Assembly: GCA_029834535.1 (NCBI GenBank)
Contig: JAQMWT010000189.1
Span: 22,696 to 86,695, forward strand
Source: Chrysophaeum taylorii
Lineage: Eukaryota; Sar; Pelagophyceae; Pelagomonadales; Pelagomonadaceae
Direction of reading: 5' to 3'
Length of the DNA: 64,000 bases
Shown here: piece after piece, positions 22,712 through 64,000 of the stretch
Position numbering within the stretch: the stretch's first letter is position 1
Layout of the letters: each line of letters begins with the position of its first letter
Translations under genes and position numbers: made by a program
The notes under the pieces: model-generated
Told to the model about the DNA's origin: nothing
What the model saw: the letters and a program-made list of their open reading frames with translations, nothing else
The model's database searches: none

Positions 22712-22742
22712 CATACGCCCGAGGCCGACGCCTTCTCGTGCA

Positions 22743-24105: not shown

Positions 24106-24312
24106 CGAGCCTCCCGAGCCTACCGAGCCTCCCGCGTCTACCGAGCCTCCCGCGTCTACCGAGCCTCCCGCGTCTACCGAGCCTCCCGCGTCTACCAAGC
24201 CTACCGAGCCTCCCGCGTCTCCCGCGTATACCGAGCCTCCCGCGTCGACCGAGCCTCCCGCGTATACCGAGCCTCCCGCGTCTACCGAGCCTCCCGCGTC
24301 GACCGAGCCCCC
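24106..24312 (+). repeat. Coding repeat, TEPPAS units
   Basis: About a dozen 15-18 bp units (accgagcctcccgcgtct) that stay in frame and encode Thr-Glu-Pro-Pro-Ala-Ser/Tyr repeats. Confidence 0.95.
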
Positions 24313-24739
24313 AAACAAGCAGCAGAAAGAGTCGTCTACAAGCTCGTTTCCTCCCTGGTGGCCAACAGACAAAGAAGCGTGGGACCGTGCGCGCGCCGAG
24401 CTCACCACCACCCTCAATATGCTTACGGCGCGCGGAAGGAGTTTCAAATCAGTCCGGGTGATGGCTTCGGATGTGCCATATCCCGCTGCGCAGCCTAAAC
24501 ACTACGTTCCTGGAACAGTCACCTACGCCAGAAACAAGTTCGCCGTCACGTACGACAACGGGGACGATACGGAGCGATATGATGCGAACGACGAAGACAA
24601 GGGAATCCTTGCCGAGCTGAGTATGGGGTACTTCTTACCTTTCGAGAACGATTCGGTGCGATATTTGAAGCCGAGTTCAATGATGTGTGTTTTTATGGGA
24701 GTGTCCAAGAATGTTTGTAGCAGCGAGCTCGTGTGACCC

Positions 24740-25500: not shown

Positions 25501-25809
25501 TAAAAAGCCTCCTTAAGTTTGATTAAAAAGGCCGAAGTTTGGTCAATACTGTGGAAGTTTGAGGAGTAGTGACCAAATTTGTTGACCAAACTTACAAGGA
25601 AATTAGTCAAACTTGAAGGGTTGATTGATCAAACTTAATGCAACTTCGGAGTGACCAAACTTAACTGACCTAACTTCTATGGAAAGTGACCACACATGTA
25701 AGTTTTTCCTTAATCATACATCAAAATCGAGCAAACATGAGAGAAATTCACCAAACTTTTTGACCAAACTTGACGGATCCCTTAATAATACTGTAGGGAA
25801 ACGGTTTCG

Positions 25810-25818
25810 TAACATACG
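25810..25818. repeat. SINE target duplication, left
   Basis: TAACATACG, repeated at 26184-26192. Confidence 0.92.
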
Positions 25819-26183
25819 TATACCCTTACCCTGATTGTCGACTGCGGTTGCGATGGAGGACGGTGCCTCATGAATCCTGAGCCTTGCGAGGGCATCCGCC
25901 CTCCCGGCGTAGGTTGGCACCTATTCGCCTCCCGGGCGGGCCGGTTGGCAGCCGGAACGTTCGCAGTGGGACGGGGTATGGCCGGGGGGCGAAGACGGAA
26001 GGTTATCGACGAGTTGGTTGTCAGTCACCGCGGTCTCCTCGTCGCATGGCGACAAGCTTGATGGTCACTCTCCGCCGACCGACCTTTCGGCGCTCCTCGT
26101 CTACAGGCCCGTGATTCCGGACTGGCTCCTGTCGGTCCGGCCTGGCTCCCATGCTCGGGAGAGGTCTGAAGTTAGTAGTTAGT
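25819..26183 (+). mobile_element. SINE (copy 2, near full length)
   Basis: 365 bp, 9-bp perfect target duplication TAACATACG. Body starts 'tacccttaccctgattgtcg', ends 'ggtctgaagttagtagttag'. The last 65 bp match the LINE 3' end at 7440-7509 at roughly 80% by eye, including 'cctggctcccatg' and the AGTT tail. I found no convincing tRNA A/B boxes in the head. Confidence 0.92.
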
Positions 26184-26192
26184 TAACATACG

Positions 26193-26945
26193 AAGAAGCG
26201 TATCATCAGACTCAACAACAACTTTTACATTGATATTTAAGCCAAAGTCATTAGTGGCTTGAGACAGGAACGCTGGGGTTGACGAACCAGAACAAAGTAA
26301 CATGACGGAGGTTTTGCGAAGATTGGGCTCTTGTGAGAGAAACACTGGGCGTGATAGTATTCAGGTTAATGGCGGTGTGTTTTGCTGGACAAACTTGTTC
26401 TGTTTCCGAAGATTGAGAACCAAAGGACGAATCCACGGGCGATCTGGTAAAACTCTTTTGAGTAGATAGTTGTAATATGCCAGTAGATCCCTGTTTCCAT
26501 GGTATCGCTTGAGCGGAAATGCGAGGGAGCGAAGTTCGAATTGCTTGTCGCGAGCGATGTTGTAGGTGAGACAAGGGAGAACAGGTAAATTAGCTGCTAT
26601 ATAGTGTATGGGAATACGCACGTCTTTGTCTATGCGGCTCGTGACAGCGCGGAGCTTTGGCTCAGATCGATCATTGAACACAGTGGTCAGGTTCGTCTGG
26701 TTCCAATCGAGCGTGCTCAGGATAGCGAGATGTCGATTGTGCTCTGGCTGAAGACATAAGCGAAGTCGATCTTAACATAGCCAGCTTGTGGATGATCTGG
26801 TAGGGGAACAACTATATTACGTGTTAGCATCATTTGTGAGGTACGTTGTTGTCCAGTGGCAGTTTGAATAACAATCGGCGCGTATTTGGAGTCCAGTGGA
26901 ATAATATGATTTGGTATTGCAAAATCGCACGTGGACATCTGGCAG
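26193..26945 (-). pseudogene. copia A1 uncharacterised block, part 1
   Basis: Minus frames 26938-26717 (CDFAIPNHIIPLDSKYAPIV, vaguely protease-like) and 26681-26361 (FNDRSEPKLRAVTSRIDKDV), then NINVKVVVESDDTLLRM to the SINE border. Several frameshifts. A protease would be expected here but is not demonstrable. Confidence 0.5.
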
Positions 26946-28990
26946 TGAAGAAGTTCTCCAGAAATAACAGATGAGTTGGAATGATAATCGGTTGAACAGG
27001 TGGCGATGGTTCGTCGGCCTCATCAGCCATGCTGTGCTTCTCATCAAATGACGATAGCGAAGTATGATCGGCATCCCTTTTGGTTTCGGCTTGTGGTGGT
27101 TGGTTGAGGGCAGAGTGGACCTGTGAAGATAGCGAGGACAGTAACGCTGGTGGTAAAGCCGAGATGGCGGAAGCAGTAAAGAAGTTAGGCACAATATTGG
27201 AGGGATTACCCTGTGTGTTGGAGGCATCCTTAGTATCTGTAGTAGGAGTGGCCTTTGGGGTGGGAGCAGTAGCAACAGTATGATGTTGTGGCTCCACGTA
27301 GTTTAACGACTTTTCGGTCGAGGAAAGATGGACGTCTACATCATAAATGATGTCTTCTGCGAACATGAGTTGTTCGTTTAGGCGAAGTAAGGCACTATTG
27401 TCCTCAGTAGATGTCGTTGACAGAATGTCAGCGGATTGCAATAGAGTCTCAAATAACTTGTTGATATTCTGTTGTAGCTGAGCCGTGGTATCATTATCTG
27501 TCACATGCTTCGTAAGTTCGCTACACTGCGATTGCAGTGTGTTTGACGTGTGCTTCGTTCGATCTAATAATTTCATGTTAGATCGAGAGGACCTGTCAAA
27601 AGTGCGGGGGTAAATTGGGCGATCATGAAACTGTCCAGTAGTTTTCTTGGTGACATAAGAATCACCATGTCGATAATATGACAGATCGCTGCGAGAGAAA
27701 GGCCGGCGAGCATCATTAGAGTTACGCAAGCGTCTAGCATTAAACGTGGAAGATGTACCAGGTTGAGACGCAGTAATGAAGGCGAGTGTGTTAGCAGTTT
27801 GAGTCCGACTTTTGTCTGATAAATCCAGCGTGTTTGTAAGTAGTAACTTTGGCTTTGGTTGAGATGTTAGTCCTTCGACATAGGGTTGCCAAGAAACAGG
27901 GCGTTCTAAGCGTCTTTTGTTCGACCCATTTGATACTACATTATATAAGTCTAATGCGTATTCTAAGATATAGCTAGGGTTGGTAGGGTGACACAATCGT
28001 TCAGCTTCTGGCACAGGCCGAGATGAAGATCGGGTTTCATACATATAACACCAATCTACCCAACCACGATCGTAACGATTGTTGCTGGTATTATCGGCAT
28101 AATGCCGATGTATCTCATCATAAATTTTTTTAGAAAGAGTACCGAGGTCGAATTGAAGGTCAGTCTCTTCCTGGTTAAGTTGGTAAGAGATTTGCCTAAA
28201 TGTTAGGACAGCTTCGATAAACACATGGACATACCAGTTAGGATTATAAACAACAGAGTTAAACTGCTGTTTCATGTAGGACACATCAGTAGTCGTAACA
28301 GACTCGTAGTGACTAAAGGCAATGAGCATAATGGCTCGAGCCTTGTTGGGTAAATAACTTTTGTTATATACCTCACTGATGGCGGGCCAGGCCGCAGGTG
28401 CTGGTTTTCCAACACTTTCAAGATCGAAATAAGTATGCAAGAATGTAGCATACGTATTCTGACAAGTGTGCCAGTCAGCAGCAGTTAACGAAAGCATAGT
28501 AACAGGGGCACGAACACGGGTGTCAAAAGCTAATGCTTTCGGGTGCGCGCGATTTAAGATTCGTTCCTCTTCTAAGAAACGAGCATTGATTTCAGGACGT
28601 AATGCCTTGACTTCATAGTCGTAACAGACAGTAGCTAGCTGAGCTACTTCTGCATCAGGTAAGTTGGGGAAGGCTTCATTGGTGAAATGCCATTCCTGAT
28701 ACTCAGGGGGCAATTCATCAACAGCTAAACGGAGTTCAGCAGCCCTATCGGTCTTCCATTCCAGGAAAACGCGATCGAGAATTTGATTCCGGAGGATATT
28801 ATGTCCGCACGCGTGATCGTCTTAGGTGCGGCTCGTGCTGCGTGTTATGCCATACCAGTTGACGGGGAACCAATGGGTTCAGTCACGCAGTTGACACTGT
28901 CTAGACATTCAAAGGGGGTATGTCTATCGGTGTCTATGTACACTCATTCGTTTTCGATGGAAAATGTCTATTTGACGACGGTGCAAGCTG
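26830..28990 (-). pseudogene. copia A1 Gag (main element)
   Basis: Frame 28713-26830 extends upstream past the non-ATG track start; LPPEYQEWHFTNEA is preceded by AVDE. Blocks shared with the 9-11 kb copy: ALRPEINARFLEEERIL, KARAIMLIAFSHYES, RHYADNTSNNRYDRGW, then a Ser/Arg-rich part (RPFSRSDLSYYR), a helical NKLFETLLQSADIL region, SLNYVEPQ and a Pro/Thr-rich tail. Longest intact stretch is 627 codons. N-terminal start is lost to frameshifts near 28750-28900. Structural role in the particle is inferred from position. Confidence 0.78.
27299..27320 (-). repeat. Copia A SLNY motif, site 5 (main gag)
   Basis: Minus strand CGACCGAAAAGTCGTTAAAC; reads STEKSLNYVEP, as at site 1. Confidence 0.92.
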
Positions 28991-29690
28991 TGAGTCCAGA
29001 GTAGTGTCGCTAAGCGTAGTCACTCAGGCAGCTGGTTATTTTTGGTGCTCTCAAGGAGCTTGTTAGGTGCATTGCCATGGAATGTACGAGTGGACGTACC
29101 CAAAATATTCCACAACATGTGTGCTAGAGTACAGGTTAGCCAACTTACACACACATCAACATTGACATGACAATACGATACTATGAACATGTGCACACAA
29201 GGTTACACGATCACGTGTGCAAAATGTGCGATATACAGCCCAATGGTAATGGCGTTATATTGACAAGCGTGTCTGCATGTCGAGGCTGGACCGGCGCGGT
29301 AACAGTCCAAAACCCATAGGTTACGTGCATGCTGACACGTGGTTTCTCAGGGACCCGCCTGGGCCCATAACCTGCAGAGCATTTAGCATGCAGTGGTAAG
29401 TCACCTGGGAAACCATCCCGTCTCATCATGAACGTCTGGAAGTATTTAATTCGGGGAAGGAAAAAAGGTATGTTCCCTATATCCTCAGAACACGACAGGC
29501 GGCATCTAGAACTACACGAGAAAGGTAAAGTGTATAGTGCTACATACCTCGGGACGCGCTAGACCATGATGATGAGCTTAAGCACAAATCAGAGGACTAT
29601 TTGACTGTGTAGAAAGGAAGAAGAAGGGTAAGGAAGAGATCACATTCTCAACGGACGGATAAGGGTAAGAGGCAGCAGATTTCTCTGAAA
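28991..29690 (-). repeat. copia A1 5' LTR and leader (main element)
   Basis: Colinear with 11215-11974. Begins near 29688 with CAGAGAAATCTGC; the first T-G is altered (TTCAGAG). It abuts GC-rich non-copia DNA at 29691. Confidence 0.75.
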
Positions 29691-46141: not shown

Positions 46142-49100
46142 ATGAAGACCGCTACCAAGAGGTTGGAGATGCACGAAGACAAGGGCGAAGGTCTTACAAA
46201 CGAAGATCTCGCGTATGGTTTAGCGTTACATTGGTGCGATGTGAAGGCCACGACCTGGTACCGCTACGATGGTAAGTTTTGGAGGGGCTGGACAAGTGGA
46301 AGCGTAGAACGCAACCCGTTAGATCCCACATCGACACAGTGGCGGATCTCTTCTCCTCGTCCAGCTGAGTGGCGACCTTGGTCTCGGCTCCTGGATGAAT
46401 CACGCCGGCCTTACATGCGCTGGTTCGAGGGTGCTGCTACGAATGTGACATTCACCGCGCTTGACAATCACTGGCTTAATGGTCGTGGTAATGATGTGAG
46501 CATGTCTTCCTGCGAGTTGAATGAGAAATGTTCTAGGTCGCCTTTGACTGTGCTTCCGTATCTTCGAACAAGGAATCGTATAGTTCTATAAACCGCCGCG
46601 ATCTACTTAGTGCTGTCTGTGCCTTGAGTCGGTGCGTACGGTCTGACTTAGGTGGAGACGCTCTTATGCCACTTTCTGAGCGCTGTTTATTTCACGCACG
46701 AACGGGTTTCGAGCAGGTCGCATACATTCTTGCATGTGCCCGACTTGGTATTGTCTACACGTGCACAGCAGTCGATGCATCAGACGCAGCAATCCTCCAC
46801 AGGCTGCATGATTTAAAACCCACTCTGTTGGTTGCAACTGCTGATGGGGATATAACCCCGCATACTATGCCTGGTGCTTTGGCGGAGAGCCGACTTCGAG
46901 AACTCAGTGGTTGTCCTAGTGAAAATGGGTTAGTTAAGTTGTTTTACGTCGTAAGCCAGGGGGATGTTGCGAACTTGCTCCTGCAAGAACGACGGAAGGC
47001 ATTTAATGCCACCTCGGAATATGAACTATCAGTTTGGCCTCACCCCTTTGCTGCGAGTGATGTGCATGCTTTGTGTGTAGTGTACACGTCTGGGTCCACT
47101 GGGAAGCCTAAGGGTGTCGTCCATGGACATGGTGGGTATGCTGCCTGTGTATCACGAAGTATGAAGTATACATTCCAAACCGCACGCAAGGATAAGTTGC
47201 TGGCAGTTGCTACGTTCGCGTGGATTACTGGGCAGAGTTACATGTTAATGGGACCATTACTGGCAGGTTGCACGTCTATCCTCATTGAGGGTTCCGCACT
47301 TGGCCTCGATGGCCTCCGCTGGGCACGTATTGCCAAGGCTCGACGTGCAACAATTCTAAAAATTGCTACTGCCTTTGTGCGTCACGTAATGGTTAGTTCA
47401 TGTCGGACTTCAGCACTTGCAAGTCTTAATCTGTCTGGAACGCTGCGCCTTGCAACTTTCTGTGCCGAGCCCGTATCTGTTGATGTGCAGTCATGGGCTT
47501 GCCAGGCCCTCTGTCCTTTATTTTTTAACTCATATTGGGGAACAGAGCATGGTTCGATTGTGTTGACTTGGCGACCTGAATCTGCGCATTCCTTCGAACC
47601 TGACACCAAGTGCTGGCCCGTGCCGTGGGTGCACTGCGGGCTTACCGCGTACTCTGACAGTGGTTCAGGTGGGCCGAAAGACATTGTTCTTCTTCGACCG
47701 TACGCTGGCTTGGGGCGAACGATTTGGGGAGATGCCGCGGGCTATGCGTGCGATGGCGGATGGGTTGGTGATTTAAAAAAGTTTGCTCGAGACTACTTCC
47801 CCTTCGGGACATGCGCAGTGCGTCTAGGTTTTGGATTTTTACAGGGTGATACAGCTCGCGTTGATGCTGTTGATCAAGGCTGGACCTTTCATGGTCGCTC
47901 AGATGAGGTCCTTAATGTATCTGGTGTTCGTGTTGGTGTGGAAGAAATCGAGCAAGCTCTTTGGTGAGCTTGGTGTAATGCTGCTATAGGTTGCTTGTTA
48001 GATATGCGTCAGTTGTGTGGCTTGTTAGATATGCAATTGTTATTCACAAAAGTTCAGAGTTGTGACGTAGGGAATTGTCAGTTTTGAGTCCTCAATCATT
48101 TGTTAGGTGCATGCATGGGGTTCGCGAAGTTGCTGTCGTGGGTGGGCCGCATGCTATCAAGGGAGAAATTCCAGTTGCCTTTATTGTTCCTGAAGTGCTC
48201 AAAGGACAGTCAGTTCATTCGTACCTGTCGCACTTTCGGCAAATGGCACGAGTTTCAATAGGCCCGCACGCGGAGCCTGATGTTATTGTTGTGGCTGAGC
48301 TTCCTAGGACTATTACAGGGAAGGTGACACGCTCGCTGCTGAGAACAGTCATTTCGTCTGGTCAAGTAGCTACGATAGCTGAAGCGGAGCGCTCAGTCTC
48401 CAACACAGTTGCGTACTGGTCTTGTGTGGCTGCAGCCCAAGCTTGGCGCCGAAACGAGGTGAGAGCTGACATTCGCGTACTGACTAGCTCCGACTGGGAC
48501 GAACTCGACTTGGACTGCCATCATGTTGCTGGCTCAGCCATTGTGCCAGCGACAGGCTGGCTCGAATTGCTTCGTCGAACGTTCTGCTACATTTCAATGG
48601 AGCAAGTTCGCTTCCAACGCGAGGCTCGTGACAAATTTAAGACCTACGTTGCCCGTAAATTAGGCACCAACGATGTGGAAATTCGTGCCGAGGGGTCAAG
48701 GTTGTCACGTGGAGGTGAGACAGAGCAAGCAGACGATGCTGTTTATGCTCGGGCTGTGTTCCCGCCATCTGGTTCATTACCGCAGGTGCAGGGAGTGCTC
48801 TTGTCTTCTTTCGACTTGTTAGCTTGGAACAAAGAGGATGTTGTTGATGATATCGACTTAGCAACCCATTACCGCCGTTGCCGCGCAGTCGGTTTGCAAT
48901 ATACCGGCCCGTTTGCATGCACCCAGCGGGTGGTTTGGCGAGTTGATTATACGTTCCGCGCCCTGGTTTGTGTACCTGAGGTGAATACAGCTGCTCTGCT
49001 GGATTCGGCTCTTCAAGTAGTTTGTTCACTCGAGGCTCTTGGCACAGGTGCTGCCCACGTTCCTTTTGCTGTCAAGCTAATACGTTTTCGCACAGGTGCT

Positions 49101-50768
49101 GCCTACGTTCCTTATGCTATCAAGCAAGTGCGTTTTAATGACCTCGATCCGAATCTTCGTCTGGGTGTTGTTGTCGGTGAAATCAGGGTGCGCACTGGAT
49201 CAACACTAATTGCAGACCTAGCCTACTTCGAAGCCAGCGATGTGTTGTCTGCATCAGGTTTAGACCTGACAAGCTCGCTGGTAAACCGGCCATGTTTTGC
49301 GATCATGATTGGTGCATCCTTTTCGCGCCTAGACAAAACACAGCGGCGTGTTAGATGTGAAGACAAGCACCAGTCGTCTTTCGAGAGCGAGTTACTTCAA
49401 TCAACCAGTTGTGAAGATGAGAGAGAATCCAGGCGATTCGGTCGACTGCCTGCGCGACAGGAAGCCTCCAGTAGTCATGGTTTGGATCACAAAGTCGCTA
49501 GTAAGAGAGTGTGTGGAGTCGAACCTCAGCAAAAATTGTATCACAATATTATCAAGCTTGGAGAGTCTGTAGTCGGTGGTTACGTAGATCCATCAATGAC
49601 GCTCTTTGAGAATGGTTTGCACTCTCTTCGGGGAGTCGAGCTTGTTGGGAAAATCAATAGTGCTTACGGCATATCTCTAGAGATGCATATCATAGCCGCT
49701 GTGAGCACTTTTCAAGATCTTGCTGCAGCCCTCAAGCGCGCTCTTCATCGGAACAATGTGAATGCAGCCAGTTCGCGTAGCAATGGCCGTTTTCCTCACG
49801 TCAACACAGCTGCCCTCGGCCGAATTGCAAGAGCGAGGCAGGGTGGCCTTGAAGCTGTGAATGTTGGCCCGAAACGGTGTGACCATGACTCCAGTCTAAC
49901 AATTCTCATTCGCGAATTATTTCGAGCAGTCACTTACATGGTACGTCGCGGTTTTGTGCGTTACCTGCGCATACAGTACCGTGATGGCCTCGTTCATTTT
50001 CTTGTGCGTCCTCCAGCCGAAATAGATCTTGATTTGGAGATTACGGTGCCAGGTTCTTTTGTGGGCTTTCACCAAACTGATTATAATCGCCACTTCACGG
50101 TTCGCGAGATAGTTCGCGATTCGGAACGAGGCTTCTACAACCTCATACACGCATCTGGCCTTGCCCACCTAGAGCATTACTATCGCGTGATGTTTTTTGC
50201 CTCACGTCTGGATGCTCGATTTGATTTGGAGTTGCTGGAAGGGGAGCCATATGAGATGCGTGTCAGTATTTCCGCCATTACTGGTCCGCTTCTAGATATC
50301 GATGTTAATTTCTTCAAAAGAGACCCAAAAGTCGTAAGGAAGTCTGAACGTGCTTTTACTGTCACTTGGCGCCTCATGCTCGTCGTTGATGCTAAGCAGA
50401 AGCGCATGTATGATTTCGAAAAGGGAGGGGCGTTTGTGAGTAAGTTCGCGAGGAATGAGAATCAGCATATCGTGTCAGGGACAGAGGCTTGCTTAATGTC
50501 AAGTGAGCCCTTCTGCCGCAGAGGTAGCAGGGTCGTCCGTGTGACTCTGTTGTTCATAGTTGTAGTGGCAGGTGTGGCGTTTGTGTGTACCGTGGTGTTT
50601 CCTCTTTGTCATAAAGCCAGCATCGCACTTCGTACCACGCTTGCATCCACGTATTATTCTCCGGTTGAAACCTTAGTTGTTTTATCAGCAGTCACGCTCT
50701 GGGTGCGCGTCTCAGTTCGTCCAGATAGTTGTGATGGACCCGTCCAAGCCCTACTCCCTCATGGTTAA
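46142..50768 (+). CDS. Acyl-adenylating enzyme / PKS dehydratase / ACP / hot-dog fusion
   Basis: Three exons (46142-46495, 46537-47963, 48107-50768) sum to 4443 nt, 1480 residues, in frame throughout. Domains: acetyl-CoA-synthetase-type N-region (YMRWFEGAATN, about 95-105); adenylation core with YTSGSTGKPKG (about 300), NSYWGTEHG, GRSDEVLNVSGVRVGVEEIE and RTITGKVTRSLLR Lys (about 660); PKS-type dehydratase with HHVAGSAIVP (about 731) and LLDSALQ (about 889); carrier protein with NGLHSLRGVEL (about 1097; Ser kept, usual Asp is His); hot-dog thioesterase-like domain starting TDYNRHF (about 1250); hydrophobic segments from about 1400. Inference: it activates a short or aromatic carboxylic acid and passes it to the carrier for processing at a membrane. 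Substrate unknown. ATG at 46142 may not be the true start. Confidence 0.82.
46496..46536 (+). other. Intron 1 (41 bp)
   Basis: GTGAGC...TTCTAG. Splicing joins NGRGND to VAFDCASV, matching the acyl-CoA synthetase pattern; unspliced DNA has stops in the exon 2 frame. Confidence 0.82.
47964..48106 (+). other. Intron 2 (143 bp)
   Basis: GTGAGC...TGTTAG. Splicing joins EEIEQAL-W to CMHGVREVAVVGG across a split codon, the expected A8 junction. Confidence 0.88.
49033..49131 (+). repeat. 48-bp in-frame tandem duplication
   Basis: TGAAHVPFAVKLIRFR is followed by TGAAYVPYAIKQVRFN in the dehydratase domain, just after the catalytic Asp region. Confidence 0.92.
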
Positions 50769-52554: not shown

Positions 52555-52569
52555 AAATTAGAGAAAGGT

Positions 52570-52675
52570 AATTTCAACTGTGTTACCCTTCAGCAGAGTG
52601 AGAGCAGTGGTAGTCTGCCCTCAATTTCAACTGCGTTACCCTTCAGCAGAGTGGGAGCAGTGGTAGTCTGCCCTC
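52570..52675. repeat. 53-bp tandem duplication
   Basis: Two units with 'gttacccttcagcagagtg', two differences by eye. Confidence 0.95.
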
Positions 52676-52851
52676 GTATCTGTCTCTAACAACGAGGACA
52701 GCATGGTGTGAATAACACAGCGTTTTCTTAAAATAAAAAGGTGCTAAAAGTAAGAGAGCTAATCCTAGGATAGGGGGGTACTAACCGTAAGTCAAATTTT
52801 CTATCTCTACGCCCCCACAGATTGAACTCGGTGAGCGAAATCTGGATCAAA

Positions 52852-54714
52852 CTAAGCAGGAAGCGACTTTCCATCGACAAGGATGTGGAGAGTGTTCTGG
52901 ACGGAATTGCACGGTGGAAGAGTAGCGGAAAGAGCAACTCGATGAGATGGTGGTGAAGAAGAGGTGGAATGAGCACCATCGGCGTTCTTGAACTTGTGGA
53001 ACAAGTTGCGGGAAAGAAGTTTTGGAAAATGATCAGCGATCTGGTTGTGAGTAGGACACCAGAGGGGACGAATGACCGAGTTGGCCTGGTAGTCTCGAAT
53101 GCGAAATTCTCGCAAATAAATATGACGAGAGGGAGCACTGACTTTAGGGTGATTAGCGACGTGTAGTGCGCTAGCGTTGTCAATAAGCAGGGGGATAGCG
53201 CGAGCTTGATCACGTGAAAACAGATAAGGATGAGAAGAGAAGATCTTATGAACCCATTGGCATTCACCAGCGGCTGCGCTAGCGGCGATGAGTTCTGCTT
53301 CCATGGTGCTTTTGGCAGTAAGAGTTTGGCGTTTGCTAGACCAGAATACGAGGTTGCCAAATACGAAAATACATGCACCAGAATGAGATCGTAAGCGAGG
53401 GTCAGAACTGTCAGCGAAACTGGCATCAGTGAAACAAATAATAGGCGAACTAAGATGATGCAATTCGGGGTAGTTGCTGATAAGATGCTGAATAAAGGGC
53501 GTAATAGAGGGGCTGTCGGATGAATAGTCGAGAGAATCATTCGGAGTACCCTTCAAATAGCGAAGTAAAACATATAAATGTAGGAGATGGGTTTGCTCAG
53601 GGTTGTGCATGCCTTTGCAGCATTTGTTGCACAGAGTAGTGATATCAGGACGGCATGTGACGGACAAGTAAACACTAGTGCCACAGTAATGGGGAAAATG
53701 CTTCCGTAATAGTTCCAAGGTAGGAGCCAAGTCGGAAAGAAACTTAGCAGAAGGTTGCTGAGTGAGTTTTTCAGAGTAAGGGGCGTCAGAACTACGGAGG
53801 TTAAGTTTATGCTCGGCGAATATCTTGTTTATCTTTGCTGCTACATTCATAGTGACGTGACCAGCGGAGACATTATAATGGACGTCGATACCAAGAAAAA
53901 ATCGAGTATTGTCGTGCCAGGTACCTTTGCCATATTCTTTCTCCAAAGCGGTGCGAAGAGATGTGATTTTGGCGGTGTTGGTACGAGTGATCAATATATC
54001 ATCGACAGAGACGGATAGGAGAGCCCATCTTTTGATAGATCGATCCCAACTGATATAAAGGCAAGTGTCGACTTGTGAGCGTTCGAACTCATGTTGCCGA
54101 AGAAACGAGTCGAGCTTAGTGTTCGACAACAAAGCTGACTGTTTGAGACCATAGAGAGCCTTGACGAGTCGAAGAGCTAGTTTGGACTCTGGGTGGTTCT
54201 TCTGTATCTGCTGGATAAGGTTTTGCGAGACACGAATCCCTCGAGGTAAGTCTATCCATACCGGGCGATCAAGTGCCGATTGGATGAATGCCTGGGGAAT
54301 GTCTGCGTGCGCGACCGGGAGCCTGTGCTTCACAGCGATGGCGAGCAATAACCGGTTGGTGGCGAGCATCGCGGTCGGTGAAGATGTGGCATAAAAGTCA
54401 ATGCCGACATGTGCCAAGGAACCTCGGGCAACTAGACGAGCTTTATAGCGGTCTGGGGTGCCGTCAGCAAAATACTTGATCTTCAGCTCGAGTTTCGTCG
54501 AGATAGACGAACGGTCTGGCGGTAAAGGCTCAAGCTTAAAGACGCCGCTGGAGCACAAGCCTTCAGTTTCCTTGCGAATCGAAGCAATGTGCTTTAACTT
54601 ATCTTCTTCGCTGAGTCCTTTGAGTTCGACAATCTTTTCAGGCTCATAGACAACGTCATCAGCAGTCACGAGCTGAAACATGACATGGTCGATGTGCTGT
54701 AAGTCATAGTCCAC
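52852..54714 (-). pseudogene. copia B reverse transcriptase and RNase H (intact frame)
   Basis: 620 codons uninterrupted. RT: LKIKYFADGTPDRYKARLVARG, HADIPQAFIQSALDRPVW, LALRLVKALYGLKQSA, catalytic SVSVDDILIT (about 54010), LGIDVHY. RNase H: ICFTDASFADSSDPR (Asp), STMEAELIAASAA (Glu), LLIDNASALHVA (Asp). It copies element RNA and removes it. The domain is intact but sits in a damaged element. The first residue is set by an upstream stop/shift, not by a real start. Confidence 0.93.
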
Positions 54715-54810
54715 AACTTCTTGGAGAGTGTCTTGATTCGGATCACTTTGACTTAGGAAAAAGTGTCCGAGTTCGCCAGAATCGCATGAAGGCGTGTCTG
54801 TGACGAGAAG

Positions 54811-57640
54811 CTAGGTGGTAGTGCTGATGCGCTGAGATGTCCCATAAGAGAGAGAACTCATACAATAGAACTCTTGGTTCCATTGACGCGCATGGTACTC
54901 TGCCGGTGACAATTCGTCATGGCATACATAATTCTCGAGAACAGAACTGTCGTTGTCCAGGTGATCGACCAGAACAGACGAATGGTGCGGCTTCTTTGGG
55001 AAGCTGACGTGCAAGAGTTCTGCGTCGGTTTCTCTCTGCAGATCCAGTGCAGTGAAGCCCATGATACCATAGTCTTGAGTGGTATTTGCGAGGAGGCATC
55101 CTGTCGGAACATCACCCGGCGGCTTAGCGTCCCTTCTAATGTTGAGATCAGATGCGATGCTGACGGCATGGCCCTGGTGCGGAGCGCTGACAATGATGAG
55201 AAACATCAATGTGCTGGACATGTTGGCTGTGGCGCGAGCCGTGGGTTGCTCCTGCTGGTATTTCCAGTTGCGACCATACTCTGATGCGATGATGCGTCTG
55301 GTGAAAAGTTTTCCATCGTCGACACGCTTCACGATATAGAGTTGATCTTTGGGAATGCGGAATCCGCCCTCGTCCTTGAGATCTGCCTTGAGTTTGTCAC
55401 TCTGGTTGCGACGCACGAGGACTGGAGTAAAGCCTGGATCATCGAGAACAACCTCTAGGCGATCCTTTCGCTTGGGCATCGGAATGCTACCGTCCGGCGG
55501 AGGTGGCCGGTTGAGGAACGAAAAATCCTGTTCAGGTGTCTCGTCGCTGACGGGACTTGGATCAGCAGCAGAGGTCGGATCTGGTTCTTTATGCTCGTCG
55601 TCACCATCGGGTTTATCATCCTTGTCGTTATCACGAGTCTCGCCCTCATTTTGCGATTCCTGTCTAATTTCCGGCATTGGCTGCTCGCTTATAGCTGGGA
55701 GCGGGACCTCTTGCCGTGCCTCTGCTGGGATCTGTGCGTGTGCTTTGATCCGTTCGATCTCCTTGTTGCGGTTGACTGGCATGTCTGCATCAACGTGGAA
55801 GTCCTTCGAGTATTTTTCGATATCGCCCTGATGTACAAGCAGGATAGAGCTGTGAACATCACGGATAAATCGGTTAGTGCCGGGGAGGTTCTGGAGATAG
55901 TTGTTACTGTGGAAGTAAGAGGAGAGACGCTGGAGGGTTCCAGTTTGTGACATTGAGGATAGACAAAGGTGACAGGCTCGCCAAAGGGGAGGAGCTTCAG
56001 GAGTGGTGCCGTGGGTGACATGATGCGCCGGGGAACGGTGCAGGTCATGTTATTGCTCGAGGGCAGTCCATGAGAGCGCTGATTGTCTTCTTTGATCTTA
56101 TGCAGTAGAGCAAACGGGTGGTAATACTCAGCGCCAATAGGCTTTCCTTCGATGCGGACGCTGCGCAGGTTAAGGAGGCGAACGACAGTGCCTCGAGTGT
56201 TTTCCTTAATGATGTTTTCCGCGAAGTTCCGCTGGTGTAAGTGGCGACCAATGATTTGAAACTGGATACCGAGTTGCACCTTGAGCGGGTGGAAAGCTTC
56301 GGAGCGAAATGTTGAAAAAGCATCAGGTGAGATGATTTTCACACTTACATCGAATTCGACCTTAATCACATTGGCCACATAGAGGATGCCGGCCAGAGCG
56401 TCCTGCGCGTCCAGTTTCCTCAGGAAGTATACCCATTTGTGTGCCGAAATAATACACACGAAATGCATGATGTATCGGAAGCCACCATGGCATTTGCTGA
56501 TGCTGGGATATGAGACATCCATGTGGAGATGTTGGCCAGGGGCGTAGGCCAGTTCATCCTGTGACCAGGAAGAGTTCTTATGACTGAAGCTAACATGCGG
56601 TTGACAGCGCTTGCATTCGCTGCAGTCTCGCAGATACCGATCATCACCTGGGCGGAGATTCGTTACATTAGCTGCAATTGTGCGGCGAAGAATCTCGGGT
56701 TGTTGGTGGTGTATGCGGTGCCAGCGAGTGACCAAGAGCACTCTTTTTGCGTGCTGAATGGTGCCGGGCTTGTGCAAGGGGGGCGGAGTGGCAGTCGAAG
56801 TCCGAGGAGGAGTGGGCCGCTTGTCGACTCGGACTTTAGCAACTGTGGCCTCGGCAAGTAGCGTCTCGAGGTTTTTCGATTTGCTTGGTTTGCGGATCGC
56901 AGCATGGTGAGCATCGGCAACGGCATTGAAGTGGGAGGTGATGTTGAGGTCCTCCACTGCTAAGAGACGGCTGGGGATGTTCAAGAAAAATCCTGCAACG
57001 TGGTTGATGTCTCCGGGGCTGGGAATGCCATTCGGTATGGTTGCCCATTCGATGTGAAGGTTCACGTGGTGGCACGATTCGTGAAGTGCGAGGACAGCAC
57101 TGTACTTAGCCTGCAGTATGTTGTGCGGGACGGCGTTGCCAGTGCCATAAACGCGAAGTACGGCGGATGCTATTGGAACAAGCGGAGCAGTTCCGGGTGG
57201 TGTCCAAACTTTGCGATTTCGTCGAGAGTCGCGTGTCGGATGTGGTCGGGAGAGATCAGCAGTAATGCGTTGGAGTAGCTCGTGTTGGTTGGGTACGAGC
57301 CAGTGACCGAGTAGCACTTTGTGGATTTCTGGAGTGTATCACCGATGTGGCCGACGTAGTCCGCGTAAGTGGGACGTGCTTCGGACATTATGAGTCCCGT
57401 GGGGTCATCGAGAGTAATTCGCCCTCGTGAATCGATCGCGGCAAAGCCGGGATGCGAGCGATTCATGTAGTGGACCCACGTGGAGGGGCGCGAGCAGCTG
57501 TGAGCGACTGCTAAGGAGTTGGTGTAGGCGACGACCAGAAAGGCGGTGCCCTTGGGAACATCCAGGGAGGAAGTGTGCGTTGGGGGGAAGACTGCGGGTT
57601 GGTGTGAACAGTCCAATATCTGAGGGGGCCGTGAATGCAA
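54811..57640 (-). pseudogene. copia B integrase and acidic linker, copy 2
   Basis: Frames 57640-57170, 57317-55689 and 55953-54811. Zinc finger WHRIHHQQPEI...CSECKRC; DDE triad in LHMDVSYPS, ISPDAFSTF and NFAENIIKEN. A Pro/Asp/Glu-rich linker follows (NRPPPPDGSIPMPKRKD), then a conserved region before RT (NTTQDYGIMGFTALDL). Frameshifts lie near 57250 and 55950. It aligns with 3669-6402. Confidence 0.9.
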
Positions 57641-57659
57641 GGTGAGGGATGCGCGCGGG

Positions 57660-58700
57660 AAGTAGCCACATGCGACGGCGGTGGCGGCAGTGCCGGTGAT
57701 GGCTCCATCTAAATGGTAGGCACATTGAGACCCTGAGGCGTGAAAACAGCGGAGTGTTTTTCAGTGTTGGGACAAGTGATTGTGCAGCAATGTGAATGCC
57801 AAGAGATGGGAGATATTGGTCATCGAGGCATAGAGGTGCCGTCGGCGTCGAGTCCTAGTTCCGTGAAGGGCTTCTTCAAGCGCGCAAGCATTTGGCAGAT
57901 GCGTGCGTTCTCGGAAATCGAGAGTTGGGCAGCATTGGCGGGTGCATATGAGAAAGTGGCTTTGTCCTGGTAGTAATCCAAGGTGGAGCGGGTCACTGTG
58001 CCACGAAGGGCGGGGTTTGCTATCCAGAGATCGTCGGGGATAGTGTGACTTGGGTCCAGTAAGGGAACCATGCTCGGAGGAGATATTAACCAGGGAGAAG
58101 CAGTTTTCTCGAGGTTGTAGCCGGTGAGCGGGTGTCGGGCAAAGACAGCGAGGTAGCGGCTCTTGCTTATGACGTCACCAAAAGCGGAGGCATTGTAGAC
58201 ACCGGAGTGTCTGAAGTAACCCATGCGCTGATAGCATTTGGCGAGCTGGGTGTACTCGTGGTGAGTTCGGGGGTTTGGGGGTACATTCTCGACAGTGGTG
58301 TATGTCGGGAGCGTGCAACGAACAAAGCGAATTTGTTCTTTGACGAAAAGGTCGGCGGTCACCGGAGTGGCTTAGCCGTCATAGTCTTTCATTACACTCA
58401 GATGTTGACAAGGGAAGGTGAAGACAGCCAGGTCAAGTTGAGGTAGTCGTATTTTGCCGGTTTGCAGAGCGGGAGTGAGCCTTCTTAGATCCGCATAATG
58501 CAGAGCGTGCGGGAAAAGTTGCTGCGCGCGGGCGCGCATAATAGGGTTGATTTCACAGGTGGCCACGACAGTGATGCGTTTGTCGAAGCGTTTGCGAAAA
58601 GAGTCAAAGCCTTCTTGGTGGAGTCCACCTGCAATAATGGCGGTGTGTAGCGGAGGGGGTTGTGCTTGCACAGAGAGGTCCGCTGAGCCAGTGAATGCAT
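57660..58700 (-). pseudogene. Cytosine-5 DNA methyltransferase domain inside copia B
   Basis: Read on the minus strand: motif I IIAGGLHQEGFDSF (58610-58650), motif II VVATCEINP, DLRRL, motif IV FTFPCQHLSV (catalytic Cys, about 58410), motif VI TTVENVP (58280-58295), VIII-like ISKSRYLAVFAR, IX-like LSISENARICQML (about 57900), and an X-like HLDGAITGTAATAVA (57670-57720) in another frame. This order is diagnostic of C5 methyltransferases, which methylate DNA cytosine using S-adenosylmethionine. A TAA (58372-58374) separates IV from VI in one frame, and a frameshift lies near 57800. It is in frame with the protease upstream and continuous with the integrase region downstream. Confidence 0.85.
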
Positions 58701-58709
58701 ATTGGACGA

Positions 58710-59532
58710 CAGTACGCGGCAGGCTGATTAATTCCGTCAAGAATATAGAATGATGCTGTAATTTGGCGAAATCGAGAAGATGGGATTGCGAGCGCGTCTT
58801 TGCGACGTTCTGCGTTATGTTTGCGAGCTCATCCTTGAGGGACATTTTCGTTCCGGTGTGGAAACTAAACACAGCGCGGAATGTTTGCTTTGGATGGGAT
58901 GGCAGGGACAAGAGACCATTAGTTTGGCGATTGGCGAGAACTACTGCGGTTGTGCCTAGAAGTGTTTTGTAATCATGGGGATCTGAAGTGGAGGTGGTCA
59001 GAAGTTCATACAAGTATGGTTCGTAGGGCAGCGGTGGATCTGTTGCTTGAACGTTCAGAGCTTTCAGTTGAGAGGTCGCTATAACCTGTAGACCTGGTCT
59101 GAAGTGCGGGACGACCAGAAAGACGAGGTATAATACGTAACCTGTGGAGTCTTTGATGTCTTTTGAGGAGAGACTTGCAGCCTGCAAATACAGCGGTTTG
59201 ACACCGATGAAGGGGCTGGTTAAGGTGCCTCTGCCCATGCGGATGGTATGTTCGGGAATCCTGCATATGGACTCGGGAACAAAATGTTGGGTTGTGCGAG
59301 TGAAGCAAAATGATGCGCCACCGTCAATTAAAGAAATTTCAGTGCCGGGTCCATTGCATCCGTGCAGCGAGTTGGTTTTTGTGGGGGCCTTTCCTGTAGT
59401 GTAAGTGGCACAAAGAAAATCTGCGACTCTCGGGGGAAGTTCTGATGATGTCGGAAAGTTCTTCATCATGAGGCGTGGTGCCTGATTTAGTAATTTTTGG
59501 TTGGCGGCACAGGCGTCGTCGGCAACCATCAT
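58710..59532 (-). pseudogene. copia B protease-like region
   Basis: Same frame as the methyltransferase. GTEISLIDGGASFCFT (about 59350) resembles the retropepsin Asp-Ser/Thr-Gly-Ala-Ser site, with Asp-Gly-Gly-Ala-Ser here. TLTSPFIGVKPLYL follows. About 200 residues of unknown function link it to the methyltransferase. Confidence 0.62.
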
Positions 59533-60117
59533 CGAAAAAGCTGACTCTGGTGTAGAGCACGCATGTAGTCGCTGTGACGTTGTGCGTAGTCTTCGGCGGA
59601 GTCGTCTTCATCATCTATTTCGGGGATGTTATCGTCGTAGAGGCCTAGCTGTCCGTGATCATCATAGAAACCGAGGTGGCCTTGGTCATCTGCGTCGTCG
59701 GCTGCGCCCTCATCGGGTGGATCATCCTGGGGATCGGATGATAGCACCTGAAGAAACTCGGCGGCGTCGGAATCAGCCTCGGAGAGAAGGATCTCGTCGG
59801 AGATAGTGGTAATAAGGTTGATAAGCTTGGTCATGCGCTCGGAGTTTGAGGTGTGTGGGCGGCCGGCTTAACTGAGGTTCCGGATGGTCTGGAGCTTGCG
59901 ATGAACATCACGGAGGGGGACCTTAAACCGTTGATCAGGAGTGGACGGCTTTGGTGGATGCGCGTTTGAGTGGGAAAAGTGACCTTGCGGAGGTGCGGGG
60001 GTTCACGTTTATCTGGGGTGACAGGAGAAGCACGGGGGTTGTGTTTGTTCTTTGTTGGGGTGACAGGGGTGGCATTGGGCTTAGGGCTGTCATTGATGTC
60101 GTAGTACGACGGGTGCA
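59529..60117 (-). pseudogene. copia B Gag-like N-terminal remnant
   Basis: Frames 60117-59870 (YYDINDSPKPNATPVTPTKN, Pro-rich) and 59834-59529 (acidic, with GHLGFYDDHGQLGLYDDN repeat). Position before protease suggests the Gag C-terminus. It is cut at 60117. Confidence 0.45.
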
Positions 60118-60424
60118 GAGCATTTAGCAAGCAGTGGTAAGTCACCTGGGAAACCATCCCGTCTCATCGTGAACGTCTGGAAGGTTAATTCGGGGAATGA
60201 AAGGCTATGTTCCCTATATCCTCAGAACACGACAGGCGGCATCTAGAACTACACGAGAAAGGTTAAGTGTATAGTGCTACATACCTCGGGACGCGCTAGA
60301 CCATGATGATGAGCGTAGGCACAAATCAGAGGACTATTAGATTGTGTAAAAAGGAAGAAGAAGGGTAAGGAAGAGATCACGTTCTCAACGGACGGATAAG
60401 GGTAAGAGGCAGCAGATTTCTCTG
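60118..60424 (-). repeat. copia A1 3' LTR fragment
   Basis: Minus strand starts TGCAGAGAAATCTGC at 60424, right after the purine tract CTCGAGGGGG (60425-60434). Matches 11588-11974. Cut at 60118 against copia B. Confidence 0.82.
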
Positions 60425-60669
60425 CACCCCCTCGAGATGTCTTAAGCGCAAGGTGCGATTGTAGAGCATCTCTTGAGAAAGATGATGATGAAGAGAAAAA
60501 AAAAAAGGAAGGAATACAGTCTTGATGGTCACAGAGGCCACATACGAAGCATCAAGAGTATAGAAGGGGGGTCTTAGGACTTGGACTTGGACTTGGTGGA
60601 GCTGAGAGTCGATTTGACCCTTTTGAACAGAACATTAAGAAACACAGATACAACATACAGTGTGTTAGG

Positions 60670-62265
60670 ATTATTAATCATCGTCAGCTTCTGCTGTAAG
60701 GTGGTGAACACCAATAGCTGAACGATGTGGTGCCAAGAGAAGGGTGAGTGCAAGTAGAGCATTCAGTATGGATGGCGACAGAAAATCTAGTTGAAAGGTG
60801 TCCAGTTGGTTTTCCAAAAAAAAAGGTTGGACTTGGCGAACGAAGATAGAAGAGTCTTCAGATTCACATGAGAGCGGACGGAATGCTCTGAAGCATGAGA
60901 GCAACTTGTCACGCAGATGAAGGAGGTGATCGTCCGGGGAGGAGTAGTTGGTAGCATGTTGATCATGAGCGGTGAGTATTAAGCGAGACAACAGCTCTGT
61001 GATCTTGTACAGTGTATAAGTAACACGTGGGTGTTGGCTGTAGGAGGGAAGAGCCGGTTCTCCAGGGCAGCAAGCGAAGCAGAAGGCGTAGGTAACGGTG
61101 GCGAAGATATCTCCAGAATAGCGTCTAGTGTGGAGTGTGAGTAGTTTAACGACGTTTCGGTCAACGTTAAAAAAAGGGGTGCAGGAAGCCTTAATGTTCT
61201 GCCTGAACATGAGTGTGGCCGAACATTACATCCCGGAGTGATAGCGGTTCTGTATCATCAGAGGATGATGCGTAGTTGTTAAGATGTTGTACACGCGATC
61301 GGATAACAGTATGAATCACATGGTGGTATTTGGTGGGCTTGAACATAGCCTGAGTTTTACGAGCTTGTGTTCGCTCGAGCGTTACAAGAAGGTTAAGCTG
61401 CTCCAGGTGCATCTGAGTAATAAGCCGAAGGTCCAGTGCCAATGGTAGTTGAGTAGTGGAGTCTGTGGCTGCATCGGTTACTGATAAGACTAAATGAGCA
61501 AGTGACGAATGTTGCGTTAGACTGCTAGTCAAGAGAGTATGTAGCTCCTTTGGCAATGATACGTGCGTATGATGACTGCGCGTATATGACCAGCTGAGCA
61601 CCCATCACAGGAGGGTTGGAAGGAAGTAGCATTACGTGCACATACGTTAGGTTGTATGTGTTGTGACAAGCACAAAAAATGTTAGTGGTGATAGTTGAGA
61701 TGGGGATATGACCATTCTTCTTGTGGTCATCTGTGTTGAGGTGACTCAGTACTTCGGTGGGGAGTTCACTAGGTGCTTGTGACTTCGAATTATATGTGGT
61801 AGAAGCAAGAAATGTAGGCTGCCCCAAATCGTTGAGGCATTGCGTACAGTAGGATGACAGGATGAAACGCTCACGTTTGGGGCCTCTGTAGCAGCCAATA
61901 GAAGTAATAGCAGGAGCAGCTTCCCAAAATGTAGTAATGGGTAGGCGCATGGATATGTTAGTTCCACAAACAGTAAAGAGTCAGCAGATTCATATATCGA
62001 GTTGAGTGCCGTAGAGATTTCCGCTCGCATAACAGAAGAGAGAAAGGGCGTAGCAGGAGTACGGAAGCTCTCAGAACGAGAGAATCCTCGTTCAATCAGG
62101 GCAAAATCCATGTTGAGGCCATCCTGGAGTGTTAGGGATTGTAGCAAAACAGGTTCAGCTGGTGTCGGTGAGACAGTAGCAGCCTGGGAGGTAGTAGGAG
62201 TGACAGTGGTTATGGGTTGTCGCATTTGAAACAACTTGGGAGAGATGCCACGGCCACGGGAGTGT
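60670..62265 (-). pseudogene. copia A1 ORF3 (post-pol protein), full length but frameshifted
   Basis: Frames 62234-61746, 61950-61525, 61601-61191 and 61210-60674. Conserved with 14297-15160: Thr-rich start, LTLQDGLNMDFALIERG, RLPITTFWEAAPA, CTQCLND, LNTDDHKKNGHIPI, CACHN. New here: a helical part (LRLITQMHLEQLNLLVTLER), SLNYSHS, ITELLSRLILTAHDQ and a hydrophobic ILNALLALTLLLAPH near the end. Total would be about 500 residues. No named family fits. Position matches env-like ORFs of some copia and gypsy elements, but no signal peptide was seen. Confidence 0.6.
61142..61163 (-). repeat. Copia A SLNY motif, site 6 (inside ORF3)
   Basis: Minus strand TGACCGAAACGTCGTTAAAC; one frame reads LTETSLNYSHS. 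Confidence 0.88.
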
Positions 62266-62333
62266 CAAGAAAGACATGAACAACACTCGCCCGTGTACAA
62301 AAAAGTTGTGGCAAGAGAAGGTAAGGCCAGGGA

Positions 62334-62355
62334 TAGTTTAACGACGTTGCGGTCA
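62334..62355 (-). repeat. Copia A SLNY motif, site 7 (17 nt after pol stop)
   Basis: Minus strand TGACCGCAACGTCGTTAAAC; pol frame past the TGA (62372-62374) reads TATSLNYPWP. Confidence 0.9.
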
Positions 62356-62371
62356 CTAGAGTTAGGTATCT

Positions 62372-64000
62372 TCAATCCTGTAAAGGATTGTCATGAGAGG
62401 CATGATGCATACCGAGTAGAGAACGAAAAGTGGAGAACTCAGCAGCAAGTGGTTTTGTAAAGCCATCCGCCACGTTCAGCTTGCCGGGAACATGATGGAC
62501 TCGTATTTTCTGTAGTGAGATATACTCACGGATTTTAAACCATCTGGTCGACAGTGCCTTGGATCGAGAGGACCCATCTGGGTTATTGGAGGTGTGAACA
62601 GCGGCAGCATTGTCAGACAAGAAAGGTAGGCTTCTGACGAAGCGCATATCTTCAGCAATTGGGTTGTCATTGTCATCGAAGTCGACAGGGTCAGCGGTGT
62701 TCTCACCATTAGCATTGTTGACGTAGAAGGTGGGGTTGACGACAAAGGAGAGTTCCAACTGCAGCTTGCGTAGCCAGACAGCTTCATCAGCACAAATACT
62801 GAGGGCAATCAACTCAGCTTCGTGAGTTGAGCAGGAGACAATCGGTTGAAGTTTGCTTTTCCAACCAATAAGGCATTTGAAAAGATAGAAGACAAACCCG
62901 GTGGTAGATTTCCTATCTTCCTGTGCTAAGGAAGGGGCATTGTCAGCGTCAACCATGGCAACTAAGGGGTCAAACTGTCCAGTAGATACATCATGTGGTT
63001 GGTAGTAGACCACAGTGGATAGATCAATTCGATTAGCGGAGACAGTGCGAAGGTGAGCTTCAATGGCATTACCTTTAGGGTGAAACCAGAGGCGAAGTGA
63101 GCGGTTTTCCGGCTTCTTGAGGTAGCGAAGCAAATGCTCTAGCATTTGGACGAGAACATACGTAGGTGCATGCATACCACGCGAACATCTGCCCAAGGCT
63201 TGCGAGAAGTCAGGTCTGCAGGCAACTTGCATGAACACCAGCTTGCCAAGGAGGGTGGCAAAGTGCGAATTGATGTACAACTCTGTTTCAGTGTTGGGAG
63301 TGCCATCTTTATACTTGAAGGACGACGACATAGGATATTTAAGCGGGGTCAGATGCTGCAAGACTGGGTGATCAGCGAAGAGTTCATCCAGCTTGGCTTG
63401 CACATCCAGAGAAATGGAGCCGTTAGATGTGCGACACACACGCATGCCTAGGAGGGTATGGACAGGTTCAAACTGCTCTACAGCATACCGTTTGTGGAGG
63501 GCATCCTGTAATTCAGTACGAAGAGGGTCGTCATTGGACACAATAACAATGTCGTCTACAGACAGACTGCATACGACGAACTTAGCATGTGCGGATACTC
63601 GAGCATATAGGCAAGAGTCCGAATGCAGGCGTTTGTAGCCAAGGCTACGGAAGAAACCGTCTATCTATCTCTTTGTTCCAAAGGGATGGGTGTTGCCGAA
63701 GTTCATAAAGTGACTTCAGCAGTTTCGGTAGACGTCGGCCCTTGTACTTAGCGTCATCGGGGTCGATAAGCTTGATGCGTCTGGTAATTGAACATAGACA
63801 TTGGCATCGATGTCAGACTGAACGAAGGCGTTCGGGACGTCTGCATGGTAGACAGGCAATTGCTTGTATGCTGCGATAGATAGCTAGTAGTACCCCGATT
63901 GCGGTCATGGTGGCATTGGGCTGAAGGTACCAAAGAAATCGGCGCCAAGCGATGCTAGGAAGGGCCACGTATGTGACGAGGCGAGCCTTCGGCTTAACGT
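62372..64000 (-). pseudogene. copia A1 reverse transcriptase and RNase H, copy 2
   Basis: Frame 63541-62372 covers the late RT (MSNDDPLRTELQDALHKRY, LLGMRVCRTSNG) and RNase H (AMVDADNAPSLAQ, CSTHEAELIALSICADEA, LSDNAAAVHTSNN). The catalytic LSVDDIVI region lies near 63550; beyond it several small indels scramble the frame (for example the TATC repeat near 63663). Ends with TGA at 62372-62374. About 95% identical by eye to 15250-16700. Confidence 0.92.

Follow-up and report, generated by a model that had tools for sequence, protein, structure and literature searches.

Why would a retrotransposon, a kind of element that many hosts silence by cytosine methylation, itself keep a methyltransferase (MTase) domain? 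The question is raised by a copia element, copia B, on the minus strand of the window, by which we mean the whole stretch of 64,000 nucleotides that was analyzed (positions 22696 to 86695 of the contig, in an assembly of 70.8 Mb, from a eukaryote to judge by what the window contains). The first-pass annotation had placed a C5 DNA MTase, at 57660 to 58760, in the polyprotein of this element. The domain is there, and three further points lie beyond that first view: motifs IX and X lie later, a second family (copia A) has a homologue, and the copia B enzyme is bacterial or phage-like rather than DNMT3-like. The occurrence of the MTase is wider, and probably older, than was then seen.

A C5 methyltransferase domain in the pol region of copia B

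The window copy of copia B (52559 to 60113) is dead and 5′-truncated. It retains little of gag and nothing of the 5′ LTR, and in blastn comparisons with sister loci most alignments stop at 60112 to 60113. Past about 60113 to 60125, sister copies are dissimilar to the window copy, except for one piece of locus L015 (60127 to 60427). At the truncated 5′ end, 60114 to 60426 belongs to another repeat, 95 to 98% identical to 11585 to 11968 and 29373 to 29687. The 3′ LTR (52559 to 52809, minus strand) matches paired LTRs from other loci (see below) and contains a 53-nucleotide tandem duplication (52570 to 52675); a direct LTR search within the window found no pair, as expected from the loss of the 5′ LTR. 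The remaining pol features, all on the minus strand, are the protease signature IDGGAS (59311 to 59328; Asp kept in 25 of 26 copies), the HHCC zinc site and the start of the rve core of the integrase (56511 to 56726; rve E = 0.0031, below the cut-off), and a copia-type reverse transcriptase (RT) (52852 to 54810; RVT_2 [PF07727], E = 3.2e-35), with RNase H assigned by position. Four in-frame stops interrupt the copy, three in the MTase region (TAA at 58372 to 58374, TGA at 57761 to 57763, and TAG at 57170 to 57172) and one elsewhere in pol (TAG at 54811 to 54813), and the frame changes near 57834, 57140, and 55923. A second, truncated copia B copy (1771 to 6402, minus strand), located by tblastn of the L011 pol, holds the C-terminal part of the MTase, the integrase, and the RT and is 94.7% identical to that pol over its longest stretch. 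Outside these elements, a 900-amino-acid open frame at 48066 to 50768 looks, in our reading, like an acyl-adenylate/polyketide synthase fragment.

The MTase domain, delimited by a six-frame PF00145 search and by tblastn to open copies, runs over about 1.5 kb from motif I to motif X (57100 to 58641, minus strand) and is broken by stops and frame changes. Motif I reads AIIAGG (58624 to 58641), divergent from the usual LFxGxG, with GG in all 25 copies that cover it. Then follow, on the same strand, motif II, TCEIN (58560 to 58546); motif III, HYADL (58500 to 58486); motif IV, PCQ, with the catalytic cysteine (58405 to 58413); motif VI, VENVPP (58276 to 58293); and motif VIII, FGDVIS and then KxR (58165 to 58182), which diverges from the usual form in having no Gln. 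Motif IX is HATLDE (57218 to 57235; RYATLNE in L011), with T in 19 and E in 20 of 21 copies, and motif X is GNAVPH (57123 to 57140; LANAVPHH in L011), with N in 20 and V in all of 22 copies. The catalytic motifs IV (PC), VI (ENV), VIII (R), and X (N) are all present in order. Motifs VIII and IX are separated by approximately 300 residues, a long stretch that is probably the target-recognition region. The first-pass assignment of the motifs from I to VIII was right; motifs IX and X, at 57235 to 57218 and 57140 to 57123, fall outside 57660 to 58760, and the domain therefore extends to about 57100. The protease and motifs I to IV of the window copy share a single open frame (58372 to 59607), in agreement with the claim that the two are in frame.

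The assignment to the C5 MTase family had been left to a PF00145 search, and the matches are significant. The six-frame match in the window scores 33.9 bits (E = 5.8e-7; cut-off, 22 bits) and has one TAA inside it. Among the single open reading frames of the window, the one with motifs VI to VIII alone stays below the cut-off (E = 0.035; 14 bits), and the one with motifs I to IV has no PF00145 match. The open sister copies L011 (E = 1.1e-7; 32.1 bits) and L014 (E = 2.7e-8; 34.1 bits) also exceed 22 bits. PHROG DNA-methyltransferase families match copia B copies at E values of 9.4e-8 to 9e-12, both end values being reached with PHROG 116, and TIGR00675 (dcm) matches at 2.5e-8 and 1.4e-7, far under its own bit cut-off. 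In a PDB profile search with copia B, M.HhaI was top-ranked (E = 0.41); a single copia B sequence gave no PDB match at an E of ≤1.

Copies of copia B and their coding constraint

PF00145 matches occur in at least 57 places in the genome (123 of 474 candidates scored), two of which appear, in our reading of the sequences, to be host genes, one Dnmt2-like (L001) and one Dnmt5-like (L002). From the 55 nonhost places, we examined 26 (the window copy and 25 fetched sisters, chosen by their MTase match), and all 26 carry a copia B pol. A protease region lies upstream of the MTase in every copy and an integrase region lies downstream in 22; in the other four (L019, L020, L023, and L029), similarity stops before the integrase. 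Most fetched copies are broken. Nevertheless, in 3 of the 25 sisters one stop-free frame runs from the protease across the complete MTase and into or through the integrase: L010 (pol residues 1 to 1769, from the protease to the start of the RT, where the fetched sequence stops), L011 (1 to 1952, through the integrase to the start of the RT), and L014 (1 to 1066, into the integrase). Two more copies are open over 95 to 1226, from the MTase through the integrase (L024), and over 198 to 930 (L035). By tblastn, the MTase region is without stops or frame breaks in these five of the 26 copies; around motif I, L024 is short by about 25 residues, and past motif VIII a local stretch of L010 is misread.

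In L011, the frame stops after residue 1952, and the remainder of pol follows further on, in another stretch. This frame contains rve at 1016 to 1110 (17.2 bits, below the cut-off) and RVT_2 at 1686 to 1933 (133.2 bits); the integrase thus lies upstream of a copia-type RT, as in copia elements. The paired LTRs of the L011 element (L011:460-667 and L037:889-1084) are 88.9% identical over 208 columns and bound an element of about 9.6 kb.

The frame breaks of the window copy could suggest that this copy alone received the MTase, through insertion of a separate gene; nothing else was found to favor this reading, to which we give practically no credence. The junctions with the protease (26/26) and the integrase (22/26) recur in the sisters, albeit in copies chosen by their MTase match, open frames span both junctions in L010, L011, and L014, and copia A has a homologue in the same place. 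In the examined copies, all of which were selected by PF00145 match, the MTase showed no edges of an independent insertion; as the loci were picked in this way, copies without the MTase are invisible to the survey. The placement of the domain between protease and integrase, as part of pol and not as a nested gene, is borne out by the motif coordinates in the window and by the sister copies.

The residues P, C, and Q of motif IV, E and N of motif VI, and R of motif VIII are invariant over all 26 copies, and so, in the 25 copies that reach these positions, are both G residues of motif I and the G of motif VIII. This invariance by itself is not strong proof, because 31% of positions in the MTase core are invariant (median conservation, 0.96). 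Pairwise dN/dS values against L011 (simple NG86 values, with dS saturated in the most distant copies) are 0.07 to 0.25 for the MTase core in 24 of 25 comparisons, with dS of up to 2.2; the exception, L031, has 0.44 at a dS of 0.06. Elsewhere in pol, where codons sufficed, values are 0.04 to 0.32 for the integrase and 0.03 to 0.43 for the RT. The VIII-to-IX region is looser than the core (0.07 to 0.60), in part owing to frame breaks within it. Even L032, 57% identical to L011 across the domain, retains motifs I, VI, VIII, IX, and X in open pieces. Copia B is a multicopy retroelement with an MTase in a coding region under purifying selection.

Two side observations concern the same copies. In the MTase core, L027 stands at a synonymous distance of 0.63 from L011, against 0.22 in the integrase, which suggests mosaic copies formed by recombination or template switching. 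At the gag/pol junction, TGATG, in which the gag stop overlaps an ATG of the pol frame, stands right after CTTTTTC; both motifs are present in all 10 copies compared (L011:3097-3140, eight other loci, and the window at about 59530), and they would fit either stop-start reinitiation or −1 frameshifting.

Affinity to bacterial and phage enzymes

To place the MTase among known kinds, we compared pairwise alignment scores with those of 200 shuffles each, using two copies per family and a small panel of enzymes. The copia B copies score highest with the phage enzyme vir335 (z, 16.9 to 17.9), a bacterial enzyme, P0001 (12.5 to 13.8), and M.HhaI (10.3 to 10.5). P0001 and vir335 are favored in this comparison because both were found with copia B as the query, whereas M.HhaI was not. 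Three further phage enzymes reach 5.2 to 8.0 and DNMT1 reaches 4.7 to 5.0. The host Dnmt5-like gene (1.3 and 3.5), the host Dnmt2-like gene (0.4 and 1.6), and human DNMT3A (0.9 and 0.5) score lowest, and motif IV is PCQ in copia B versus PCN in DNMT3A. For copia A, the one high value is with P0001 (11.7 and 9.4, reached by 0/200 shuffles each). The phage enzyme U8 (2.9 to 7.1), the host Dnmt5-like gene (5.1 and 4.9), M.HhaI (3.1 and 1.9), and DNMT3A (2.6 and 1.2) follow, and three other phage enzymes, DNMT1, and the host Dnmt2-like gene (1.7 and 0.1) lie between −0.1 and 2.6.

On these pairwise scores, with DNMT3 represented by the human DNMT3A, neither family has an affinity to DNMT3, and the host Dnmt5-like and Dnmt2-like genes are the closest relatives of neither family, the Dnmt5-like value of copia A being below its P0001 value. 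By pairwise affinity, as distinct from a tree, the copia B sequences place their MTase firmly nearest to bacterial and phage enzymes of the Dcm type. The Dcm affinity of copia A would rest mainly on P0001, since its values for M.HhaI and most phage enzymes are weak and that for the host Dnmt5-like gene is better. The Dcm-type enzymes (M.HhaI, P0001, and vir335, the last annotated as phrog_116) share with copia B the PCQ and ENV motifs and the order of motifs VIII to X. They differ from it in being free-standing, with a shorter VIII-to-IX region, whereas the copia B enzyme lies within pol and has a longer one.

The same scores bear on a different substrate. LTR elements use tRNA as the primer of reverse transcription, and tRNA is a substrate of some eukaryotic members of the C5 MTase family; the domain might therefore methylate RNA (the primer tRNA or the genomic RNA of the element) in the manner of Dnmt2. 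We consider this distinctly unlikely, as the z values for the host Dnmt2-like gene are negligible in both families, against 10 to 18 between copia B and three bacterial or phage DNA enzymes.

Close relatives were not found in the collections searched. The protein database gave none at an E of ≤1e-3 for the L011 pol region, none at an E of ≤1e-3 in a profile search (one match at 0.18), and none at an E of ≤1 for the copia A pol. In viral contigs, 0 of 21 pattern stretches were confirmed. Phage records yielded one enzyme, in two records, with 25% identity (E = 3e-6).

A divergent homologue in copia A

The second copia family, copia A (16048 to 28821, minus strand), comprises in the window a gag (26830 to 28821) and an integrase and RT (16048 to 18859; RVT_2, E = 4.6e-41; a retroviral SH3-like match at 1.9e-5 and rve at 0.092, both under the cut-off). 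Its RT is 34.7% identical to that of copia B, and a genome search gives at least 86 rows for it, which reduce to about 80 places once split rows are joined (81 of 1,420 candidates scored). Another copy at 61555 to 64000 is 84% identical to 14365 to 16898.

Where copia B has its MTase, between protease and integrase, copia A has a divergent homologue (18766 to 26324, minus strand), recognized by tblastn of the open copy L041, alignment, and shuffles. The homologue is split in the window into a motif I part (26184 to 26324) and a VI-to-X part (18766 to 20865). The nonhomologous stretch between them (20866 to 26183) has plus-strand open reading frames (22119 to 23832) that in our reading resemble a MULE-type transposase; a Pfam scan of two open reading frames in this stretch did not confirm such a transposase. 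Pfam and PHROGs did not recognize the copia A protease-to-integrase region, and two open copies had no PF00145 match even at an E of 10. As Pfam misses this form, MTase domains in algal transposons may exceed their annotation.

Local alignment of the two MTases (residues 51 to 542 and 31 to 557) scores 168, a value reached by 0/500 shuffles (65 ± 9; best, 105), and two other parts of the copia A pol score 85 and 57. Pairwise BLASTP gives 0.003 and 0.009 for the two best collinear stretches. Similarity is collinear from motif II to motif X and includes a common IPxxLW stretch after motif VIII. Judged from these alignments, and independently from its match to bacterial P0001, the copia A region is a homologue of the MTase of copia B, and as this homologue has the same position in pol, the capture looks older than the A/B split; the sequences suggest a single capture before it. 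An alternative is that the two families captured related MTases independently, or swapped the domain by recombination. Identity is 17% over 240 columns, profile-profile comparison yields a weak match (E = 0.052; probability, 1%; Neff, 1.2), and the best matches of the two families differ, all of which speak for this alternative, but the shared position and the collinear similarity, IPxxLW included, make it rather unlikely in our judgment compared with inheritance from a common ancestor.

In five copia A copies, the catalytic Cys is kept in 4/4 (the window copy is without that part), the Glu of motif VI in 4/5, the Gln and first Arg of motif VIII in 4/5, and its second Arg and the Asn of motif X in 5/5; motif VI itself reads AEM in place of ENV. 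Core dN/dS values against L041 are about 0.09, 0.20, 0.31, and 0.44 in four copies, the last being L040, which has a misread stretch. In each of four copies inspected at this point, an in-frame TGA separates the protease from the MTase (window, 26361 to 26363; L039:706-708; L042:2154-2156; and L041, upstream of its open reading frame), and it could be a site of read-through or reinitiation.

The retained residues also bear on whether the domain methylates DNA at all. It may keep the MTase fold without being a practicing DNA methylase, binding DNA or SAM for integration targeting or particle assembly, and the divergent motif I and missing Gln of motif VIII in copia B, together with AEM in copia A, would suit such a role. 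We regard this as improbable, because Cys, Glu, and Arg are invariant in all 26 copia B copies, with the caveat on core invariance given above, and copia A mostly keeps Cys, Glu, and the second Arg.

A possible role in methylating element cDNA

We lean slightly toward an explanation in which a Dcm-like MTase borne by pol, captured before the A/B split, methylates the cDNA of the element. The pol order is protease, C5 MTase, integrase, RT, and RNase H in copia B and, divergently, in copia A. The protease would free the MTase inside the virus-like particle, and the enzyme would flip out a cytosine and methylate it by way of the covalent Cys of PCQ and the Glu of ENV. Its target would be the double-stranded cDNA of the element, before or during integration, and new copies would thereby arrive already methylated; the first-pass annotation had likewise proposed that the enzyme could methylate new copies or the target locus. 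The element might gain from this by toning down harm to the host, by shielding its cDNA from nucleases or sensors, or by inserting into methylated chromatin. The source would be a bacterial or phage-like gene, probably captured before copia A and copia B separated. Copia elements may thus write the very mark that is often used for their own silencing.

Methylation might leave a trace as CpG decay, and neither observed/expected ratios nor C/T changes gave a clear signal of it. The CpG ratio is 1.00 for the copia B element as well as for the pol of L011, 0.90 for one pol of copia A, and 1.07 for the window; L001 and L009, host loci of higher GC content, have 1.26 and 1.42. Changes from C in L011 to T in a copy occur at 4.7% for CG, 5.5% for CT, 3.6% for CC, and 2.3% for CA, and the reverse changes occur at 5.3%, 4.5%, 3.5%, and 2.3%, respectively, so that CG is not singled out. 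The transition/transversion ratio is highest at CG (2.26 versus 0.93 to 1.81). The effect is slight at most, and coding constraint and GC content blur the signal.

Comparison with known retrotransposon methyltransferases

The host plastid is of the red type and lacks phycobiliproteins: rbcL adjoins rbcS on contig C697, and no phycobiliprotein family match was found in the genome. Such a plastid fits an ochrophyte or haptophyte rather than a red alga, green alga, cryptophyte, or peridinin dinoflagellate. We are evenly divided on the broader statement that, in this alga of the red-plastid lineage, an old copia clade of at least two families (RT identity, about 35%) marks its own cDNA with a working pol-encoded methylase of bacterial or phage type. 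Next to the cases described in 2018 (DIRS, LINE, and Gypsy), it would represent a third host lineage and would differ in both retroelement superfamily and MTase source.

The first-pass annotation pointed to reports of MTases captured by retrotransposons, and such cases are in print. The passages of PMC5890265 considered here describe DIRS, LINE, and Gypsy carriers and, in Symbiodinium, Copia elements without a DNMT domain. A sentence in PMC12344493 puts DNMT3 in “LTR Copia and DIRS,” citing that 2018 paper; the Copia carrier named is thus a DNMT3 one, whereas the matching passages of the cited paper have Gypsy in Klebsormidium nitens and DNMT-free Copia in Symbiodinium. Section 5 of PMC12344493 does not name the Dcm type in retrotransposons. 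Diatom DNMTs are treated in PMC9998398, with retrotransposon-borne MTases absent from the matching passages, and the relevant part of PMC12477816 describes an MTase of an Ectocarpus Sola1 transposon, predicted to make N4-methylcytosine or N6-methyladenine. Among open-licence titles, in the parts consulted, we recognized no report of a Dcm-type MTase in copia.

The closest parallels, as described in the consulted passages of PMC5890265, share features with copia B in different combinations. SymbioDIRS-Dnmt3 of Symbiodinium likewise has a C5 MTase in its pol open reading frame, many copies, and purifying selection (Ka/Ks < 0.2), and de novo CG methylation by this family has been demonstrated in yeast; it is a DIRS element with a tyrosine recombinase and a Dnmt3-type enzyme, whereas the element here is copia, with a Dcm-like enzyme in copia B. 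SymbioLINE-Dnmt is also a multicopy retrotransposon with an orphan MTase outside DNMT1/3/5, but it is a LINE, carries the MTase in an open reading frame upstream of that for the RT, and shows CpG depletion (PMC5890265). KnitGypsy-Dnmt3, from the charophyte K. nitens, resembles copia B in being an LTR element with an MTase in the Pol polyprotein under purifying selection and differs in being a Gypsy element of the green lineage with a Dnmt3-type enzyme (PMC5890265). Retrotransposon MTases are therefore already known, and a copia carrier with what appears from its sequence to be a Dcm-like enzyme differs from the published DIRS and Gypsy cases with DNMT3. A constrained non-DNMT3 enzyme in copia implies a further capture event, with a probably different source, and the copia MTase offers another kind of test case for the idea that retroelements methylate their own cDNA.
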